From: a virus
Strand: one strand, 5' to 3'
Virus record (IMG/VR): IMGVR_UViG_3300025154_002520
Location: 1 to 21,204 of that record
DNA length: 21,204 bases
Every line of letters starts with the position of its first letter. Position 1 is the stretch's first letter. Below are positions 12,127 to 20,126 of this stretch, one piece after another. Both the position numbers and the translations under genes were made by a program. The notes beneath the pieces are model-generated. The model worked only from the letters and a program-made list of their open reading frames with translations. It was not told where the DNA came from and made no database searches.

Positions 12127-12333
12127 ATGACAGAATCAAACGATGTTAAACAGGGTAGCCCCCGGCTAAACCCTGCGGCATTAACCGTGGAAATAGCCGC
12201 TAAGATGCTTGGAATCCAAGTACAGATTATCCAGAAACATATCGAAGAAGGCGCTCCGGTAGCGGTGGATGGGACTATTAATCTGGTGCACTACGCAGCA
12301 TGGTTAAATAGCAGGATACAACATGGCTCTTGA
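12127..12333 (+). CDS. Putative small terminase subunit (HTH)
   Basis: A 68-aa protein with a helix-turn-helix: LTVEIAAKMLGIQVQIIQKH followed by GTINLVHYAAWLN. It overlaps the large terminase start by 11 bp. This is the place and size of a small terminase such as lambda Nu1, which binds the packaging site. The segment TINLV.Y..WL recurs at the N-terminus of the large subunit, showing a shared domain. The ATG at 12127 follows a run of eight T and lacks a Shine-Dalgarno sequence, which is odd. An alternative is a recombination-generated duplicate of the large subunit's domain. Confidence 0.65.
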   Translation: MTESNDVKQGSPRLNPAALTVEIAAKMLGIQVQIIQKHIEEGAPVAVDGTINLVHYAAWLNSRIQHGS

Positions 12334-14569
12334 TATAAGTAAACTTACACAGATACAGCTTGTGCGGCTGATGAACGCAACGCCGCTGGGTAGAGTCCTT
12401 ACATTAAACCAGCTTCGTTTGCGGATGATCACGGACGCATACAGCATCGGCGATGGAAAAACCATTAACCTTGTCCGGTATGTTTCCTGGTTAGCCAAAG
12501 AATATGAAAATCCAAAAACCCAAAAGCAGTCTGTCGAAGATTTGCGACTCAAAGACCTGCTTTCAAAGAATGCCGCTCGCAAAGCCTCGCAGGACATCGG
12601 TGAAATACCCGCCGTTGAGAATACCGAACGAAGAGAGCGGGCATGTCATGATTTCCGGTTCTTCTGCGAGACATATTTCTATGATGTGTTCTATCTGCCA
12701 TGGTCGGATGACCATTTGAAAGTGATATCTAAAATTGAACAATCGGTTCTTCATGGTGGGCTCTTTGCATTTGCGATGCCACGCGGAAGCGGCAAATCCG
12801 CTCTTACCCGCTCGGCTGCGATATGGGCAATACTCATTGGAGCAAGGAAATATGTCTGTCTCATCGGAAGCGCTACGCGGCAATCGCTAAATCTGTTCCA
12901 GAGTGTCCAGGCTGCTATGCTGGGTAACAATTTGTTATTAGCCGATTTCCCTGAAATAATCTATCCAATCCAGTGCCTTGAAAACTCTGCCCATAAGCAG
13001 CGCGGCCAGCGATATAATGGTCAGCTCACATATCCCGTATGGGGAACGCACAAAATTGTCATTCCGACAATTGCGGGAAGTTGTGCATCCGGTTCTGTGA
13101 TTGCGGTCGATAGCCTGGACAGTAATATTAGAGGCCAGATGCATACCACGATGGATGGGCGTATTATCCGGCCTGATTTGGTGCTTGTTGATGACCCGCA
13201 GACAAGGGAATCTGCCAAATCAGTTGACCAGACCAATCAAAGGATAAGTACGTTAAATGGCGATGTCCTTGGTATGGCAGGACCCGGCAAGAAAATGTCC
13301 GGACTACTTACCTGTACGAAAATCTACTGCAACGACCTTGCCGACCAGTTGCTTGATTCTGAAAAGAATCCCGAATGGCAGGGTCAATGTACAAAGATGG
13401 TCTATGCGTTCCCGATAGACACGAAACTGTGGGACCAATATGAGCAGATTCGAGCGGATAGTTTACGCGCTGGCAACGGTGGCAAGGAAGCAACCGAGTT
13501 CTATATCGAAAACCGTGATGCAATGGATGCCGGCAGCAAGGTTGCATGGGACCAGCGTCATAACGAAGATGATGTCTCCGCCATTCAGCATGCGATGAAT
13601 TTAATGCTTCGTGATGAAGTAGCGTTCTTTGCCGAATACCAGAACGATCCGATTGCCGAGCAGAGTGATGAGCAGGTTCTTACACCGGAGCAGGTATTGG
13701 AAAAAGCCAATGGCCGCAAACGAGGCGAGGTTCCGCTTTCTTGTCAGCATCTTACTATGTTCATTGACGTTCACGATAAATTGCTTTTCTACACGGTGTG
13801 TGCATGGTCGGAGGATTTTACAGGCTATGTCGTAGATTACGGTACCTATCCTGACCAGAAGCGTCTCTCATTTACACTCCGCAAGGCACAGATAACATTG
13901 CAAAATATCTACCCTGACATGGAAAAAGAGGGCGCTATACAGGCGGGAATGGAAGATTTATGCCGCGACTATCTAAGTCGAGACTTTTCCCGCGGCACCG
14001 GTGCTATGAAAATCGACCGCTGTCTTATCGATGGTGGGTATATGCCCGGCATTGTTGAAAATATTCGTCATAAATTTGGCGGAAATATTATGGCATCCAA
14101 GGGTGTCGGTATCAGAGCCGCCAGTAAACCAATGTCCACCTACAAGCGCAAGCCCGGTGAACGTCACGGCCACCACTGGTATATCCCAAACATAAACAAG
14201 ACTGGTGAATTTCAGCATGTGGCAATCGATACCAACTACTGGAAGACATTTGTCCATGAGCGATTCTTTGTCGCCGCTGGTGACCACGGCTCTATGACAC
14301 TATTCGGCAAAGGTGGCCATCAGCACGCGTTATTTGCCGAGCATGTTGCCGGTTCCGAGACATGGGTGCGCACCGAAGGTCACGGCCGAACAGTTTATCA
14401 ATGGTCGCCCAGGATTGGCGGTATCGATAATCACTGGCTGGATTGCATAGTCGGATGCTCGGTAGCAGCATCGATGTGCGGATGTACACTGACAGGCCAC
14501 AGTGTGAAAAGTGTTTCCAAGAGAGAAAGAATAAAACTATCAGATATTCAGAGAAAGCGGGAATCATGA
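12323..14569 (+). CDS. Phage terminase large subunit (GpA-like)
   Basis: This 748-aa motor protein packages DNA into proheads. The Walker A motif PRGSGKS is at 153-159 and the Walker B motif LVLVDDP has Asp290/Asp291. The nuclease domain shows MFIDVHD (Asp482) and LIDGGY (Asp570), the acidic residues of the RNase H-like fold. About 60 N-terminal residues form an extra domain ending TINLVRYVSWLAKEY, homologous to the preceding small protein. The size suits GpA-type terminases with such an extension. It starts at ATG 12323 inside the preceding gene, and its stop overlaps the start of the zinc-ribbon gene. Confidence 0.95.
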   Translation: MALDISKLTQIQLVRLMNATPLGRVLTLNQLRLRMITDAYSIGDGKTINLVRYVSWLAKEYENPKTQKQSVEDLRLKDLLSKNAARKASQDIGEIPAVENTERRERACHDFRFFCETYFYDVFYLPWSDDHLKVISKIEQSVLHGGLFAFAMPRGSGKSALTRSAAIWAILIGARKYVCLIGSATRQSLNLFQSVQAAMLGNNLLLADFPEIIYPIQCLENSAHKQRGQRYNGQLTYPVWGTHKIVIPTIAGSCASGSVIAVDSLDSNIRGQMHTTMDGRIIRPDLVLVDDPQTRESAKSVDQTNQRISTLNGDVLGMAGPGKKMSGLLTCTKIYCNDLADQLLDSEKNPEWQGQCTKMVYAFPIDTKLWDQYEQIRADSLRAGNGGKEATEFYIENRDAMDAGSKVAWDQRHNEDDVSAIQHAMNLMLRDEVAFFAEYQNDPIAEQSDEQVLTPEQVLEKANGRKRGEVPLSCQHLTMFIDVHDKLLFYTVCAWSEDFTGYVVDYGTYPDQKRLSFTLRKAQITLQNIYPDMEKEGAIQAGMEDLCRDYLSRDFSRGTGAMKIDRCLIDGGYMPGIVENIRHKFGGNIMASKGVGIRAASKPMSTYKRKPGERHGHHWYIPNINKTGEFQHVAIDTNYWKTFVHERFFVAAGDHGSMTLFGKGGHQHALFAEHVAGSETWVRTEGHGRTVYQWSPRIGGIDNHWLDCIVGCSVAASMCGCTLTGHSVKSVSKRERIKLSDIQRKRES

Positions 14570-14739
14570 ATCAGATGAAGCAGGAAAAGAAAGAGCCGGT
14601 GGGCTTGGAATGTCGTAACTGTGGCTGCCGGCATTTTTCTGTCGAAGGCACCCGTATCGCAAACAAGCAGATTATCAGGTATCGTATCTGCAAAAATTGC
14701 GGACAACGAATGACGACACGAGAACACGCAATTACTTAG
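14566..14739 (+). CDS. NrdR-like zinc-ribbon protein
   Basis: A 57-aa protein with CRNCGCRHFSVEGTR, then IIRYRICKNCGQRMTTRE: two CxxC pairs about 20 residues apart and a basic stretch. This is the zinc-ribbon layout of NrdR N-termini (CPFC...RRRR.C..C..RFTT.E), without the ATP-cone that NrdR needs. It may bind DNA or act as a late-gene regulator in the manner of Ogr/Delta proteins. ATG 14566 overlaps the terminase stop, so expression is coupled to packaging genes. Confidence 0.75.
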   Translation: MNQMKQEKKEPVGLECRNCGCRHFSVEGTRIANKQIIRYRICKNCGQRMTTREHAIT

Positions 14740-14839: not shown

Positions 14840-14892
14840 TGGCTGGCTATACAAAGGGTTTCGTCCCGCGTTAATGCCAGCCAATTTTATTT
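14840..14892 (+). terminator. Hairpin after the packaging genes, probable terminator
   Basis: TGGCTGGC (14840-14847) pairs with GCCAGCCA (14876-14883), with a small GGG/CCC stem in the loop, followed by ATTTTATTT on the plus strand. It would end transcripts from the terminase operon; for the opposing NYN gene the U tract is poor. It starts 100 nt after the zinc-ribbon stop. Confidence 0.5.
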
Positions 14893-15366
14893 GTACTCCA
14901 GCTTGTTTTTCAGGCCATTCATAAACACCGAATTAGGCAAGAACTCTCTCAAAAGCGATGAAAATCTGTTCTGGTCAGGAATAATCAGTTTTTCGAGTTT
15001 ATTCTGCTTCAATAGGTATTTTACGAGACAATAAAAATCCCCATCACATGACACTATTACGGCTTTATCGTAATTGGGATATTCAATCATGGTATGAAGA
15101 ACTAACTCGGCATCGACATTTCCCTTCGTTTTCCCATATACTGCTAAAGTCGGTTTAAAAACCAGAATAAAACCGGCTTGCTGCAAAGCTGTGTACATGT
15201 TCTGATTTGTAGGTAGAAATCCCAAAAATAGAAATGCCTTGTTGACGTGATACTTGTCAGTCAAGTATTGTCTGAATCTATTGTAATTGAGCTTCCACCC
15301 TTGGTCTCTAATTGCAAGATTCAGATTCTGGCTATCAATAAATGCATAATTGTTCATTTTTGACAT
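14887..15366 (-). CDS. NYN domain (PIN-like) putative ribonuclease
   Basis: Encoded opposite to all structural genes. The protein begins NNYAFIDSQNLN, the first acidic motif of the NYN/LabA (DUF88) family, then has NVDAELVLHTM and VIVSCDGDFYCLVKYLL, giving the other acidic residues of the metal-binding site. At about 159 aa it is a single-domain member. Members of the family are presumed RNases, some with roles in defence or RNA turnover. The start at 15366 coincides with the predicted transcription start, suggesting a leaderless mRNA; ATG 15357 is an alternative. An upstream ATG at 15384 would lie inside the promoter. The gene looks like a moron inserted between the terminase and portal regions. 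Confidence 0.85.
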   Translation of the reverse strand: MSKMNNYAFIDSQNLNLAIRDQGWKLNYNRFRQYLTDKYHVNKAFLFLGFLPTNQNMYTALQQAGFILVFKPTLAVYGKTKGNVDAELVLHTMIEYPNYDKAVIVSCDGDFYCLVKYLLKQNKLEKLIIPDQNRFSSLLREFLPNSVFMNGLKNKLEYK

Positions 15367-15372
15367 GCAGGC

Positions 15373-15401
15373 ATAGTACAACATAAGCGATGATTTGTCA
15401 A
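15373..15401 (-). promoter_or_regulatory. Sigma-70-type promoter of the NYN gene
   Basis: On the minus strand TTGACA (15401-15396), a 17-nt spacer and TACTAT (15378-15373) form a good promoter: perfect -35, four of six at -10, ideal spacing. The start of transcription would be about 15366, at the NYN ATG. Confidence 0.65.
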
Positions 15402-15487: not shown

Positions 15488-15632
15488 ACAGTAAAAAAGT
15501 TTCTACTAATAGAAAGAGCCTTACAAAATATCATCAAAATTATTGCATGATAAATTGACATCTCAAACTGATAGTATAAATTGCACGAGACAAGTTAATA
15601 CGCTTGACGACTAGCTATCGGGCAGGCAAAAA

Positions 15633-15686
15633 CCAAAAGTAATAAAGCCGTACAGGGCTGTACCCCTGCACGGCTTTTTCTTTTGG
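15633..15686 (+). terminator. Strong bipartite terminator hairpin before the tRNA
   Basis: CCAAAAG (15633-15639) pairs with CTTTTGG (15680-15686), AAAGCCGT (15644-15651) with ACGGCTTT (15670-15677), and CAGGG with CCCTG inside, making a long interrupted stem. Five T follow the inner stem. It ends 20 nt before the tRNA, leaving little space for another promoter. The rest of 15488-15632 contains TTGACA 15555 with TATAAA 15575 (14-bp spacing, weak) and no gene. Confidence 0.75.
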
Positions 15687-15706
15687 CTCGCATAAATGGT
15701 TGTTAC

Positions 15707-15778
15707 GGCGGGATAGAGCAATGGCAGCTCGCCAGGTTCATGACCTGAAGCGTGAAGGTTCGAATCCTTCTCCCGCAA
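15707..15778 (+). tRNA. Initiator-like tRNA-Met (anticodon CAT)
   Basis: The acceptor GCGGGA pairs with TCCCGC, but position 1 (G) faces position 72 (A), unpaired as in bacterial initiators. The D stem GAGC/GCTC gives A11-T24, another initiator mark. The loop TTCATGA carries CAT, and the T arm is GAAGG TTCGAAT CCTTC. The anticodon stem has AGG/CCT where initiators have GGG/CCC, and 27-43 is a C-A mismatch. The sequence otherwise resembles bacterial tRNA-fMet. No CCA is encoded. It lies within the phage late region and ends 2 nt before an ATG. An Ile (lysidine) tRNA is unlikely but not excluded. Confidence 0.85.
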
Positions 15779-15780
15779 TT

Positions 15781-15978
15781 ATGGCAGATGATTTAAATAA
15801 TTCGATTTTAGAAAATGCTCAAAGCCCGGCAAAAGTTTCCAGTGACGGAGTTTCCGTTGAACAACACCCTTTGTCTGAGCAAATTGCAGCAGATAAGTAT
15901 TTGGCCAGTAAGAATGCCAGCCAATGCAAAGGGCTGGGTTTGAAATTCACAAAATTATCTCCTCCAGGAGCAGATTAA
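15781..15978 (+). CDS. Small head protein, gpW-like position
   Basis: A 65-aa protein (MADDLNNSILENAQSPAKVS, then HPLSEQIAADKYLASKNA). Small proteins of this size sit between terminase and portal in lambda-like phages, where gpW is the head-tail joining protein; a pattern of the type Q-H-x-L-x-x-x-I-x-A-D-x-Y is what I recall in this slot. The match is by position and resemblance only. ATG 15781 lies 2 nt after the tRNA, so there is no Shine-Dalgarno sequence; a TTG-started frame from 15700 would read through the tRNA and is not believed. The stop abuts the portal start. Confidence 0.7.
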   Translation: MADDLNNSILENAQSPAKVSSDGVSVEQHPLSEQIAADKYLASKNASQCKGLGLKFTKLSPPGAD

Positions 15979-17370
15979 ATGTTCTCGTGGTTCAAAAATA
16001 AAGAACGTAAAGTTGTTCATCCCGCAGGACGTATCCTGCGGGCGAGGTTCGATGCCGCGCAAACCACCGCCGACAACGCCCGCCACTGGGCCAATGCCGA
16101 CTCGCTTTCGGCAGATGCCGCAGCAAACGCAGATGTTCGTAGCAAACTTCGCGAGCGGAGCCGCTACGAGATTGCCAATAATTCATATGCCAAGGGCATT
16201 ATTCTTACAATTGCCAATGACTGTATCGGAACCGGGCCGCGATTGCAGCTTCTTACCGATAGTCCTGAAATCAATCGTCGCATCGAGACCGAGTTTAGTC
16301 GCTGGGCCGATAGTACCAACCTGGCTGAAAAACTTCGCACAATGCGTATGGCCAAGGCCGGCGATGGTGAAGCGTTCGGTATGCTGGTTGCCAATATGCA
16401 GCTTCGATGCTCAGTAAAACTCGATCTTCAACTCGTAGAGGCTGAAAGAGTTACCAGCCCGCAGCTTACGCTGGTGGCTAATAATTCTGTCGATGGTATT
16501 GAATTTGACGCATGGGGTAATCCGGCTATGTATTATGTCCTCAGGCAGCATCCTGGCGACAGTGGATACTTTTCTATGGACTGCGACCGTATCAGCGCAG
16601 CGGCGATGATTCACTGGTTCCGCATAGACAGGCCCGGCCAGCATCGTGGTATCCCGGAGATCACACCCGCCTTGCCGCTCTTTGCGCAATTACGCAGATA
16701 TACCTTAGCTGTCCTTGGCGCTGCTGAGACAGCAGCTGATTTTGCCGCGGTACTTTATACTGACAGTCCTGCCAACGGAGAAGCAGCAAATTTAGAGCCG
16801 ATGGATATTGTCGGACTTGAAAAAAGAATGGCAACTACACTTCCTGATGGCTGGAAGCTCGGTCAGATAGAAGCCCAGCAACCTACAACCACCTATTCAG
16901 AATTCAAGCGTGAGGTCTTAAATGAGATCTCACGCTGTATGAATATGCCGCTCAATATCGCACTGTGCAATTCCAGCGGCTACAACTACGCATCCGGAAG
17001 GCTCGACCATCAGACGTATTATAAGAGTATCCGTGTCGAGCAGGCACACATGGGTGAGGTGGTATTAGATAGGATTTTTGAGGCGTGGTTATATGAAGCG
17101 CAGCTTTTAACAGAGTTTGCATTCCTAAGAAGACAGCCATATCTGCCAAGGCAGTGGTTCTTTGATGGTGTCGAGCATGTCGATCCTGCCAAAGAAGCCA
17201 ATGCCCAGGCAAAGCGTCTTATCTCTAATACAACAACCTTAGCCGCTGAATTCGCCCGCCAGGGCAAAGACTGGGAAGTTGAACTTCGCCAGCGTTCAAA
17301 AGAAAAACTACTCATGGCCGAACTTGGCCTGTTACCAAAGGAGAATACAAATGCAAAACAAGTTGCCTGA
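15979..17370 (+). CDS. Phage portal protein, lambda family
   Basis: This 463-aa protein forms the dodecameric ring at the capsid vertex through which DNA is packaged. The N-terminal run from RFDAAQTTADNARHW (about 24-38) to SRYEIANNSYAKGII (about 62-76) is a hallmark of the lambda-type portal family, followed by NDCIGTGPRLQL. Later segments (RPGQHRGIPEITPALPLF; SGYNYASGRLDHQTYY) also fit. Length is slightly below lambda gpB. The start follows directly on the previous stop with CCAGGAGCA as ribosome site. Its 3' end overlaps the next start by 20 nt. The protein looks intact. Confidence 0.96.
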   Translation: MFSWFKNKERKVVHPAGRILRARFDAAQTTADNARHWANADSLSADAAANADVRSKLRERSRYEIANNSYAKGIILTIANDCIGTGPRLQLLTDSPEINRRIETEFSRWADSTNLAEKLRTMRMAKAGDGEAFGMLVANMQLRCSVKLDLQLVEAERVTSPQLTLVANNSVDGIEFDAWGNPAMYYVLRQHPGDSGYFSMDCDRISAAAMIHWFRIDRPGQHRGIPEITPALPLFAQLRRYTLAVLGAAETAADFAAVLYTDSPANGEAANLEPMDIVGLEKRMATTLPDGWKLGQIEAQQPTTTYSEFKREVLNEISRCMNMPLNIALCNSSGYNYASGRLDHQTYYKSIRVEQAHMGEVVLDRIFEAWLYEAQLLTEFAFLRRQPYLPRQWFFDGVEHVDPAKEANAQAKRLISNTTTLAAEFARQGKDWEVELRQRSKEKLLMAELGLLPKENTNAKQVA

Positions 17371-17530: not shown

Positions 17531-17673
17531 CGGGGAAAGTCGAGTCTATCAGGCTGGATGATATTGAGCATCTTGATGAAGATTTGGCTTCATTACAAGC
17601 CTCAGTAGGTCAGGTATTTGCCGGTATTCTCGGTCTTGTGCATGGGATGAACACTATTCGCAAGGTGATTTAA
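17497..17673 (+). pseudogene. Headless C-terminal fragment of a deleted phage gene
   Basis: In a different frame from the protease remnant, 58 codons read like a real C-terminus (NEAWELTGKVESIRLDDIEH, later HGMNTIRKVI). The frame is open upstream only through the remnant and has no usable start. Its stop overlaps the next ATG (TAATG), as in an intact operon. It is probably the end of a head or tail gene whose first part was removed together with the capsid genes. The family is not identified. Confidence 0.5.
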
Positions 17674-20126
17674 TGCCTAACGTTTATCTATGTAGCAGCG
17701 GTGTCAATTGGAGTACGTCTGTTTGGTCGGACAGTCCCGGAGGCAGCTCTCTTGGTCGCGCTCCGGTAGACGGTGAGACGGTATTCTTATGCAGTTACTG
17801 GGTTAATTTAGATTGTGACACCGCAAATCTTGCTGGCCTGTATGCGGGTCAAGCTGCTGATGCAACAGGGAGTGGCACGATTTTTGTTTATGCCGACAAT
17901 AAAACCCTACGATGCTCTGGTACAATACAAGCGGGAACCAGTTATATCGTCTATCTGATCAGCAATTACACATTCACCTTAATTTGTGCCAATATGTACG
18001 CAGGAACCGGCAACAGCGCCTTATACACAGCCGCTGGAACACAGACCATAAATTTCACTGGAAACATCTGCGCCGGGCAATCGGCAGTAGGATATATTTA
18101 CGGATTCAACTTTGGTGGTTCTGGTATCACCCTCAATATGACCGGTGACGTTCATGGCGGCACGGTGAATAATAACTACGGAATCTGGATGGGCTGCGGC
18201 GGTGCTCTGAATATCACAGGCAATGTGTATGGCGGTACTCAGTCGTACGCGAAGGGTGTATTTGGTAAAGGCACGGTTACTATCACAGGAAATGTTTATG
18301 GCGGCTCAGCGAGCAATGCAGATGGTATAGGAACTAATGCGGGTGCATCGATAACGGTTTCAGGTAATGTTACAGGGGGGAACAATGGAGCACATGGAAT
18401 CCGCATTAGTAACTCTAATTCTAATGTTACCGTTGGCGAACTTATTATTGGAGGAGCAAATTCATCATCTTATGGTGTAACAGTGGCAAGTGGAGCAGTT
18501 ACCGGATGTACCATTAACGCAAATGGCGGTGTCTATGGTGCTGCGGGCTGCGGTATAGTTGCTCCGGCCGGCACGGTAAATGTCATCAGAAGCAGCAGCG
18601 AACTTATAGCTGTTGCAGGAGGCTCGGCAAATTCGGCGTACGGAGTTTCAATTTCCGGAACTACGATTTTGACAATTACCGGAAGCGTCACTGGCGGAAC
18701 CGTTGACGCATCAGCGTGTGGCGTATATGCCGCTGGAAGCGGGTCTGTAACTATCACAGGTGATGTAACCGCCTCGTTAATTGCCAGTGCTATATGGAAT
18801 AACAGTTCTTCGGCGATAACCGTTACAGGCAATATTTACTCCGGTAGTGGCGCGGCAAGCGGTATCACTAATAATGGTTCAGGAAAAATTATTGTTATAG
18901 GGAATGTAACCGGAGGAAGCAGCGCCAATGCTACCGGCATCAGTAATTGGAATACCGGCATGTTATTGATAACAGGTAATGTAACCGGCGGTACGCTCGA
19001 CACTACCGCATATGCCGTCAGGAACAATTCTACTGGCCGAATATACTATGGCGGCGATAAGACTAACAACACGGCCAGCGCGTTCAGCAGTGAAACCTAT
19101 GTATTACAAGCCGTTATAGCAAAGACTGCGGGCAATTGGAGCACAGGGTCTAATTGGTACGGTAATGCTGCCCCCACGGCAGAACAAAACACATATTTGA
19201 ATAATCTTGTTATGGTAATGGATGTAGCAACCATTACTGTCAGAGATGTATATGCGATAGGAGCGATGTCAAGTCAACTCATTATTGATGCGTCCGCGGG
19301 TGTTAAGACTCTCAATGCCGGTATTATCAGTGGTTCCGGTTCAACCGGTTTAATACGAGTAAATAACTCTGGAAACAAGGTAACTGTAAATTGCACATCG
19401 ATAGTCGCAGGAACCTCCACGTGTGCCGTATATATCGCCGCAAGCGCTATAGTCGAGCTAAATGTCAGTGACAGCATCTACGGCGGGATAGGATTAAATA
19501 CGTATGGAGTATATGCCGCAGGAGCGGGAGCAACTTTAACAATCAATGGAACATTGAGGGCAGGAGCAGGAACAACACATACTGAAGCCGTATATCTTGC
19601 AGCAGCAAATCTTATTGTAACTATCACTGGGAATATGTGGGCTGCGCAATCTGGTATAGGAACGTATGGCATGGCATTATATGCTAATACATCTGCGTCA
19701 GGATTGATTTTAACAATAGTCGGCAATCTCTATGGCGGCAACTCAAATGGAGACCAGTGTTTTGTTATGCGGTTAGATGGGACCGGCACCGTTGTAACGC
19801 AGAGCGGCGGCAGTTTAATAGCAGGCAACGGGATTTATAACTCAGGATGCATCTACCTGGTAGGAGTAAATTCATACGCGGATGTATCGGGCGATTTATA
19901 CGCCGCAGCAGCGAACAGGTCAAACTGGGTACTGGGCGCCGCAGCAAGTGGCACATACTTTATTGTTCGCGGCAGCGTCTATAATACCACTGCTAATAAT
20001 GCTTTGGCCGGACCAATAAAATGGGCGCCGGCGGCAGGAAAGACAATTCATTATCAAAATCTGGCAGGCGACGACGTAACAATAGCTCAGCAGAATGCGT
20101 TTCGGCGGCTTTCGGTTTGTGCGTAG
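17673..20126 (+). CDS. Large beta-solenoid repeat protein, putative virion fibre/adhesin
   Basis: An 817-aa Gly/Ser/Thr/Asn-rich protein made of about 25-35-residue repeats of the type ITGNVYGGT...A.GI, with more than ten recognisable copies (for example near 18210, 18280, 18360, 18830, 18900 and 18970). Such repeats predict a right-handed beta-helix. It has two halves: each starts with a Trp cap (NWSTSVWSD at the N-terminus; GNWSTGSNWYG near residue 490), like autotransporter-associated repeat proteins. No signal peptide or enzyme motif is seen. In a phage structural cluster it is probably an exposed fibre or receptor-binding protein. Its place before the tail-completion genes is unusual; fibres normally lie after the tape measure. 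Confidence 0.75.
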   Translation: MPNVYLCSSGVNWSTSVWSDSPGGSSLGRAPVDGETVFLCSYWVNLDCDTANLAGLYAGQAADATGSGTIFVYADNKTLRCSGTIQAGTSYIVYLISNYTFTLICANMYAGTGNSALYTAAGTQTINFTGNICAGQSAVGYIYGFNFGGSGITLNMTGDVHGGTVNNNYGIWMGCGGALNITGNVYGGTQSYAKGVFGKGTVTITGNVYGGSASNADGIGTNAGASITVSGNVTGGNNGAHGIRISNSNSNVTVGELIIGGANSSSYGVTVASGAVTGCTINANGGVYGAAGCGIVAPAGTVNVIRSSSELIAVAGGSANSAYGVSISGTTILTITGSVTGGTVDASACGVYAAGSGSVTITGDVTASLIASAIWNNSSSAITVTGNIYSGSGAASGITNNGSGKIIVIGNVTGGSSANATGISNWNTGMLLITGNVTGGTLDTTAYAVRNNSTGRIYYGGDKTNNTASAFSSETYVLQAVIAKTAGNWSTGSNWYGNAAPTAEQNTYLNNLVMVMDVATITVRDVYAIGAMSSQLIIDASAGVKTLNAGIISGSGSTGLIRVNNSGNKVTVNCTSIVAGTSTCAVYIAASAIVELNVSDSIYGGIGLNTYGVYAAGAGATLTINGTLRAGAGTTHTEAVYLAAANLIVTITGNMWAAQSGIGTYGMALYANTSASGLILTIVGNLYGGNSNGDQCFVMRLDGTGTVVTQSGGSLIAGNGIYNSGCIYLVGVNSYADVSGDLYAAAANRSNWVLGAAASGTYFIVRGSVYNTTANNALAGPIKWAPAAGKTIHYQNLAGDDVTIAQQNAFRRLSVCA

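Follow-up and report, generated by a model that had tools for sequence, protein, structure and literature searches.

In E. coli, an initiator tRNA heads the mRNA operon metY-rimP-nusA-infB, and tRNA punctuation of animal mitochondrial transcripts was reportedly described by Ojala et al. in 1981. In animal mitochondria, tRNAs abut open reading frames (ORFs), and cuts by RNase P and RNase Z release mRNAs that have almost no 5′ UTR and no Shine-Dalgarno (SD) sequence (PMC5474008, PMC5203842). Bacterial 70S ribosomes can be used by leaderless messages, and the accepted marks of a bacterial initiator tRNA are a 1:72 mismatch and three G:C pairs, with G2:C71, C3:G70 and A11:U24 helping formylation (PMC7949028). 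Here we analyze a viral record of 21.2 kb (the whole of which is referred to as the window), whose nearest relatives in the genome collection are prophages of planctomycete metagenome-assembled genomes such as GWC2_45_44 (portal identity 98%). In this record an initiator-like tRNA is joined almost directly to the start codon of a head gene, an arrangement for which we found no report on phages or bacteria in the open-access literature that we searched. We propose, with a probability of about 0.65, that this is tRNA punctuation in a phage, in which trimming of the tRNA makes the head mRNA translatable. By analogy, the arrangement would work like mitochondrial tRNA punctuation, with the cleavage in the phage predicted from sequence.

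Gene order and the initiator-like tRNA

On the plus strand of the window, the gene for the terminase large subunit, the upstream packaging gene (12323-14569; Pfam PF20454, PHROG 38), is followed by a gene for a small NrdR-like Zn-ribbon protein (14566-14739). The latter was assigned by a match to Pfam PF22811 below the curated cut-off and by synteny, as such a gene follows the terminase in many relatives. Further downstream on the same strand lie a sigma70-type promoter (TTGACA-16-TAAATT, 15555-15582), recognized from its sequence and from relatives, a structured leader RNA of about 120 nt (15588-15706), the tRNA directly 3′ of it (15707-15778), a 2-nt junction (15779-15780), a 65-aa ORF (15781-15978) and the portal gene (15979-17370; PF05136), which has its own SD. 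An NYN-domain gene on the minus strand (14887-15384) is inserted between the terminase and the tRNA; two relatives (L003/L004) retain only a 57-nt remnant of its end, and a third (L086) has an intact copy with 89% identity. Amid the structural genes, positions 17673-20126 encode a repetitive 817-aa protein with NVTGG repeats that look β-solenoid-like by eye and with no Pfam match. At the other end of the window, a Fic gene and a tyrosine integrase gene (1714-2958) come after a tRNA-Gly (312-383), and this region is probably the attachment-site end of the prophage. The possibility that the tRNA-Met is the integration site was rejected, since it sits within the late genes and the integrase gene lies near the tRNA-Gly.

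Like lambda gpW, the 65-aa ORF is placed between terminase and portal, and we call it the head gene on the basis of this position and the neighboring portal gene. Searches of its product detected no Pfam or PHROG family and, by profile search, no homology to gpW. Set against the helix-hairpin-helix fold of a gpW head-completion protein, the protein is predicted to fold as H-E-E-H (pLDDT 76), with a weak match to the lambda portal adaptor (8k38_M, E 4.7). Relatives of the gene are present in 93 of the 397 genomes of the class; one of these, a 7.4-Mb genome (G355), has 12 copies, unusually many related prophages. In L012, L017, L506 and others, the palindromes TTACATATGTAA and TTCTACCGGTGGAA stand directly after the NrdR-like Zn-ribbon gene and 60-100 nt before the head gene; they are perhaps operators of a late activator, and none was seen in the window.

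The original prediction held that the tRNA ends 2 nt before the ATG of a head gene without an SD, and both statements are borne out. The tRNA ends with A73 at 15778, followed by TT and by the ATG at 15781, and the SD duplex energy upstream of this ATG is +0.1 kcal/mol, versus -6.6 kcal/mol for the portal gene. Alignment with relatives that are 62-98% identical, many of which have an SD, places their starts at residue 1 and so supports use of the ATG at 15781.

ARAGORN calls a tRNA-Met(cat) at 15707-15778, and the Rfam family RF00005 scores 54.9 bits. We read the tRNA as GGCGGGA TA GAGC AATGGCA GCTC G CCAGG TTCATGA CCTGA AGCGT GAAGG TTCGAAT CCTTC TCCCGCA A, with no encoded CCA. Position 1:72 is unpaired (G1/A72), as had been predicted, and the stem reading confirms that A29:U41 takes the place of a third G:C pair. 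The window tRNA is thus without the full set of three G:C pairs at 29-31/39-41 that its close relatives L425/L440 possess, and the change within this family is compensatory (G29:C41 in L425/L440, A29:U41 in the window). All of the formylation elements, G2:C71, C3:G70 and A11:U24, are present; A11:U24, put forward earlier as an initiator mark, is found in the window copy but is not fixed in the family, some members having C:G or U:A instead. Three features had been overlooked: the anticodon loop has G37, positions 27 and 43 are mismatched (C27/A43), and the D-loop is short (7 nt). Among 43 copies of the tRNA, 41 have no Watson-Crick pair at 1:72, with six different mismatch types; G2:C71 and C3:G70 are kept, A73 is nearly always kept, and G30:C40 is invariant wherever the anticodon arm is intact. 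One copy (L454) has the anticodon UAU, and the same related phage carries a type II hammerhead ribozyme (L454:8210-8277). Judged by these features, most copies still look like working initiators.

A host or elongator tRNA was considered and rejected, since host initiators differ in their A37 and their D-loop of 9-10 nt, and the 5′ half of the phage tRNA was confined to prophages in the three genomes searched for it, one of which gave no match. To that extent, the same tRNA was not met outside phages as an elongator. Across the 397 genomes of the class, the type with a 7-nt D-loop is phage-associated, and the other matches are ordinary host initiators or tRNA-Gln. The host fMet genes (L111-L113) likewise encode no CCA and continue U72 A73 TT, which matches the context A73-TT-ATG of the phage join, suggesting that the phage copies a site already processed by the host. 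All eight hosts checked have a formyltransferase and an RNase Z-like protein, the latter scoring below the curated family cut-off.

The leader RNA and the proposed processing

The leader RNA consists of a long closing helix, a hairpin with a palindromic loop, and a long arm capped by a terminator-like hairpin, and it forms a three-way junction in relatives. The loop palindrome spans 4-6 nt and reads CUGAUCM, UAGCUA in the window clade or UAAUUA in L419. Most of 28 leaders fold alike independently, and covariation lies above that of shuffles and slid controls; the window leader has a fold z-score of -4.3 and a weaker closing helix. For the terminal hairpin, P4 (15647-15674), covariation supports two mutually exclusive pairings equally well. 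A covariance model, R1, matches the window at 15605-15705 with 55.2 bits, and at the loci searched the element directly precedes the tRNA or, where the tRNA is missing, the head gene. R1 matches occur in 38 of the 397 genomes of the class, a few of the genomic copies not being followed by the head gene, and no Rfam family matches the leader at gathering level. In most AT-rich members, the leader is preceded by a sigma70-type promoter (TTGACN-16-TAAATT/CATAAT) whose end lies 5-6 nt upstream of it. The leader may act in attenuation or antitermination, or as a released small RNA. The terminator-like hairpin between the promoter and the tRNA is a point against punctuation.

We propose that the promoter at 15555-15582 drives a transcript that would run through the structured leader, the initiator-like tRNA, the gpW-position gene and the portal gene. 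RNase P would cut at the 5′ end of the tRNA and, because no CCA is encoded, an RNase Z-type endonuclease would cut after A73, leaving an mRNA that starts 5′-UUAUGG. With two bases before the AUG, such a message would be near-leaderless rather than strictly leaderless; it would be SD-independent and may start on 70S ribosomes with a formyl-Met initiator tRNA. In the unprocessed transcript, by contrast, ribosome binding should be blocked by the acceptor stem, only 3 nt away from the AUG, and expression would depend on processing.

An elaboration that we advance only tentatively places the tRNA between two products, a released noncoding RNA of about 120 nt and the near-leaderless head mRNA, with the tRNA itself supplying a nuclease-resistant initiator. 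RNase P would then give the leader a defined 3′ end, and RNase Z would release the head mRNA. If true, three RNAs would come from a single precursor: a regulatory or packaging RNA, an initiator tRNA and a late mRNA.

Spacing and Shine-Dalgarno sequences among relatives

We gathered tRNA/head-gene junctions by tRNA, protein, combined-pattern and GTDB-genome searches, with the tRNA and the head gene required to lie within 80 nt of each other. The 41 junctions found, from planctomycete phages, show a bimodal spacing. In 21 of them, belonging to about six lineages (14 junctions in the window clade plus L419, L564/L595, L620, L633/L654 and L643), the spacing is exactly 2 nt and the SD energies range from +0.1 to -2.5 kcal/mol; the other 20 are spaced by 11-71 nt, and all have an SD (-4.2 to -12.6 kcal/mol). 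None of the 41 has a spacing of 0-1 or 3-10 nt. The two spacing classes differ with a Mann-Whitney p of 3e-8, a value that ignores relatedness within lineages and serves as a guide only. A U precedes the start codon (position -1) in 21/21 two-nucleotide junctions, and the portal genes of the same phages keep their usual SD (-3.8 to -10.8). Within the close family, the tRNA and CGCAA-TT-ATG are present in every relative whose tRNA region is complete. The nearest relatives without the tRNA have an SD (GGAG in L022/L058, GAGGG in L008/L010/L011), as do most tRNA-less relatives. On a portal tree of 197 sequences, the 22 two-nucleotide tips fall into several separate clades and imply 10 parsimony changes; given that the nearest tRNA-less relatives possess a leader with an SD, the leader/tRNA module has been swapped. 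Half of the relatives that carry the tRNA rely on an SD downstream of it, which counts against punctuation as a necessary companion of this tRNA.

As a control free of bias toward the head gene, 88 distinct phage initiator-type tRNAs were collected regardless of the downstream gene. Sixteen of them are followed by an ORF of at least 55 aa that starts 0-20 nt downstream, and an ORF within 0-5 nt occurs only in copies beside the head gene, always at 2 nt. Chance adjacency is rejected on the strength of this control together with the spacing statistics. An assembly artefact is rejected because many viral contigs, independent of one another, share the join, as do several GTDB genomes. Extended codon-anticodon pairing of base 37 with the U at -1 is no more than an idea, as G37 would give only G.U. 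The pattern scan found unrelated abutting tRNAs as well, including those in L221 and L246; in the latter, an initiator-like tRNA (L246:1219-1293; CCA encoded) has its 3′ end right at the ATG of an ORF whose 300-aa product by eye resembles a Dam-type DNA methylase.

These data bear most directly on the simplest rival, namely that the two genes are merely juxtaposed in a compact genome and that the head gene uses non-SD initiation on an unprocessed or partly unfolded transcript. Initiator-type tRNAs are common in phages, the initiator identity elements are kept in most copies, and a third of the tRNA-less relatives (54 of 151 portal tips without the tRNA) fail a simple SD filter, which suggests that non-SD initiation may occur in these hosts. 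We nevertheless consider juxtaposition unlikely: it is hard to reconcile, without constraint, with one exact spacing and an unvarying U at -1 across about six lineages, an SD is present whenever there is room for it, and the other phage initiator tRNAs of the control have no ORF within 5 nt.

In three relatives, the internal arms of the tRNA have decayed while the acceptor/T-arm side and the 2-nt join are retained: L564 has a bulged arm and no CAU, L595 has no anticodon loop, and L643 has lost the D-arm. This pattern indicates that the 3′ boundary of the tRNA is selected in cis, and it is preserved even where decoding has been lost. The idea that maturation of the tRNA defines where the SD-less message begins is strongly supported by comparison, namely by the exact spacing in about six lineages, by the strict exchange of SD for join and by a join that outlives the tRNA arms, with the processing steps themselves as predictions. 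Its corollary, that the message favors the phage's own initiator, finds no support, since the decay of the anticodon arm in some relatives shows that the join may persist after the tRNA has ceased to decode.

The same decay could also mean that the tRNA is mainly a cis-acting, tRNA-like switch of head-gene translation, bound for example by methionyl-tRNA synthetase, formyltransferase or a translation factor, with cleavage incidental. The bistable, covarying leader RNA directly upstream would suit such a switch. It is nonetheless a rather improbable account, as the 1:72 mismatch maintained through six types and the invariant G30:C40 are what working initiators show, and a regulatory fold does not predict a spacing of exactly 2 nt.

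A further proposal, that the tRNA is primarily an anti-defence initiator whose altered anticodon loop (G37, variable 38) resists anticodon nucleases of the host, VapC among them, and that the join is secondary, draws on the presence of G37 in 8/9 head-gene-linked initiators versus 0/78 of the remaining phage initiators whose loop could be read. Changes in the anticodon loop that confer nuclease resistance are known from phage tRNAs, and VapC cleaves initiator tRNA; however, where tRNA-fMet is cut by VapC, phages as a rule do not encode it (PMC10264068). Moreover, the proposal leaves the 2-nt join and the loss of the SD unexplained and does not fit the decayed arms of three relatives, and we regard it as highly improbable as the main explanation. 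Nuclease resistance is possible as a second pressure on the tRNA, and such a role can coexist with punctuation. Finally, an N-terminally extended head protein, starting at TTG 15700 and read in frame through the tRNA, is rejected on account of in-frame stops within the tRNA of L578 and L595, even though the frame is open in 19/21 two-nucleotide junctions and in the window; Met at residue 1 is conserved in SD-bearing relatives, and the tRNA evolves by compensatory stem changes.

Comparison with known systems

The gene order and the small size of the head protein are like those of the lambda gpW region (terminase-W-portal), but the 65-aa protein has no sequence match to gpW and the fold support is weak. 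In contrast to the phage join, no start codon follows metY at 2 nt, and the genes of its operon have leaders. With the bacterial initiator tRNA-fMet, the phage tRNA shares the 1:72 mismatch, G2:C71, C3:G70, A11:U24, CAU and G30:C40; it differs in A29:U41, G37, the C27/A43 mismatch and the 7-nt D-loop, and in being phage-borne and joined to an ORF (PMC7949028). Like other phage-encoded tRNAs, it is a phage tRNA gene with an altered anticodon loop, but it is set apart by a position, and a distance to one gene, that stay the same even in distant phages (PMC10264068).

MALAT1/mascRNA offers a parallel of another kind, in that a tRNA-like structure that does not always decode follows a structured RNA and is a substrate of tRNA-processing enzymes (PMC11693755). 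The decayed phage members resemble mascRNA-type processing elements, whereas most phage copies look like working initiators and the downstream product in the phage would be an mRNA.

If the punctuation reading is correct, head-protein synthesis would be coupled to host tRNA-processing enzymes, and the module would provide a portable cassette for SD-independent expression. The relatives form a natural series, with a spacing of 2 nt and no SD, a spacing of at least 11 nt and an SD, a decayed tRNA, or no tRNA, which makes the question of translatability by tRNA trimming directly testable. As in mitochondrial punctuation, the phage tRNA all but touches the start codon of an mRNA without an SD. Unlike in mitochondria, a single, initiator-like tRNA is involved, in one phage head operon in bacteria, and ordinary SD-bearing genes follow. 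The arrangement would thus bring tRNA punctuation, the hallmark of animal mitochondria, to a bacterial virus.
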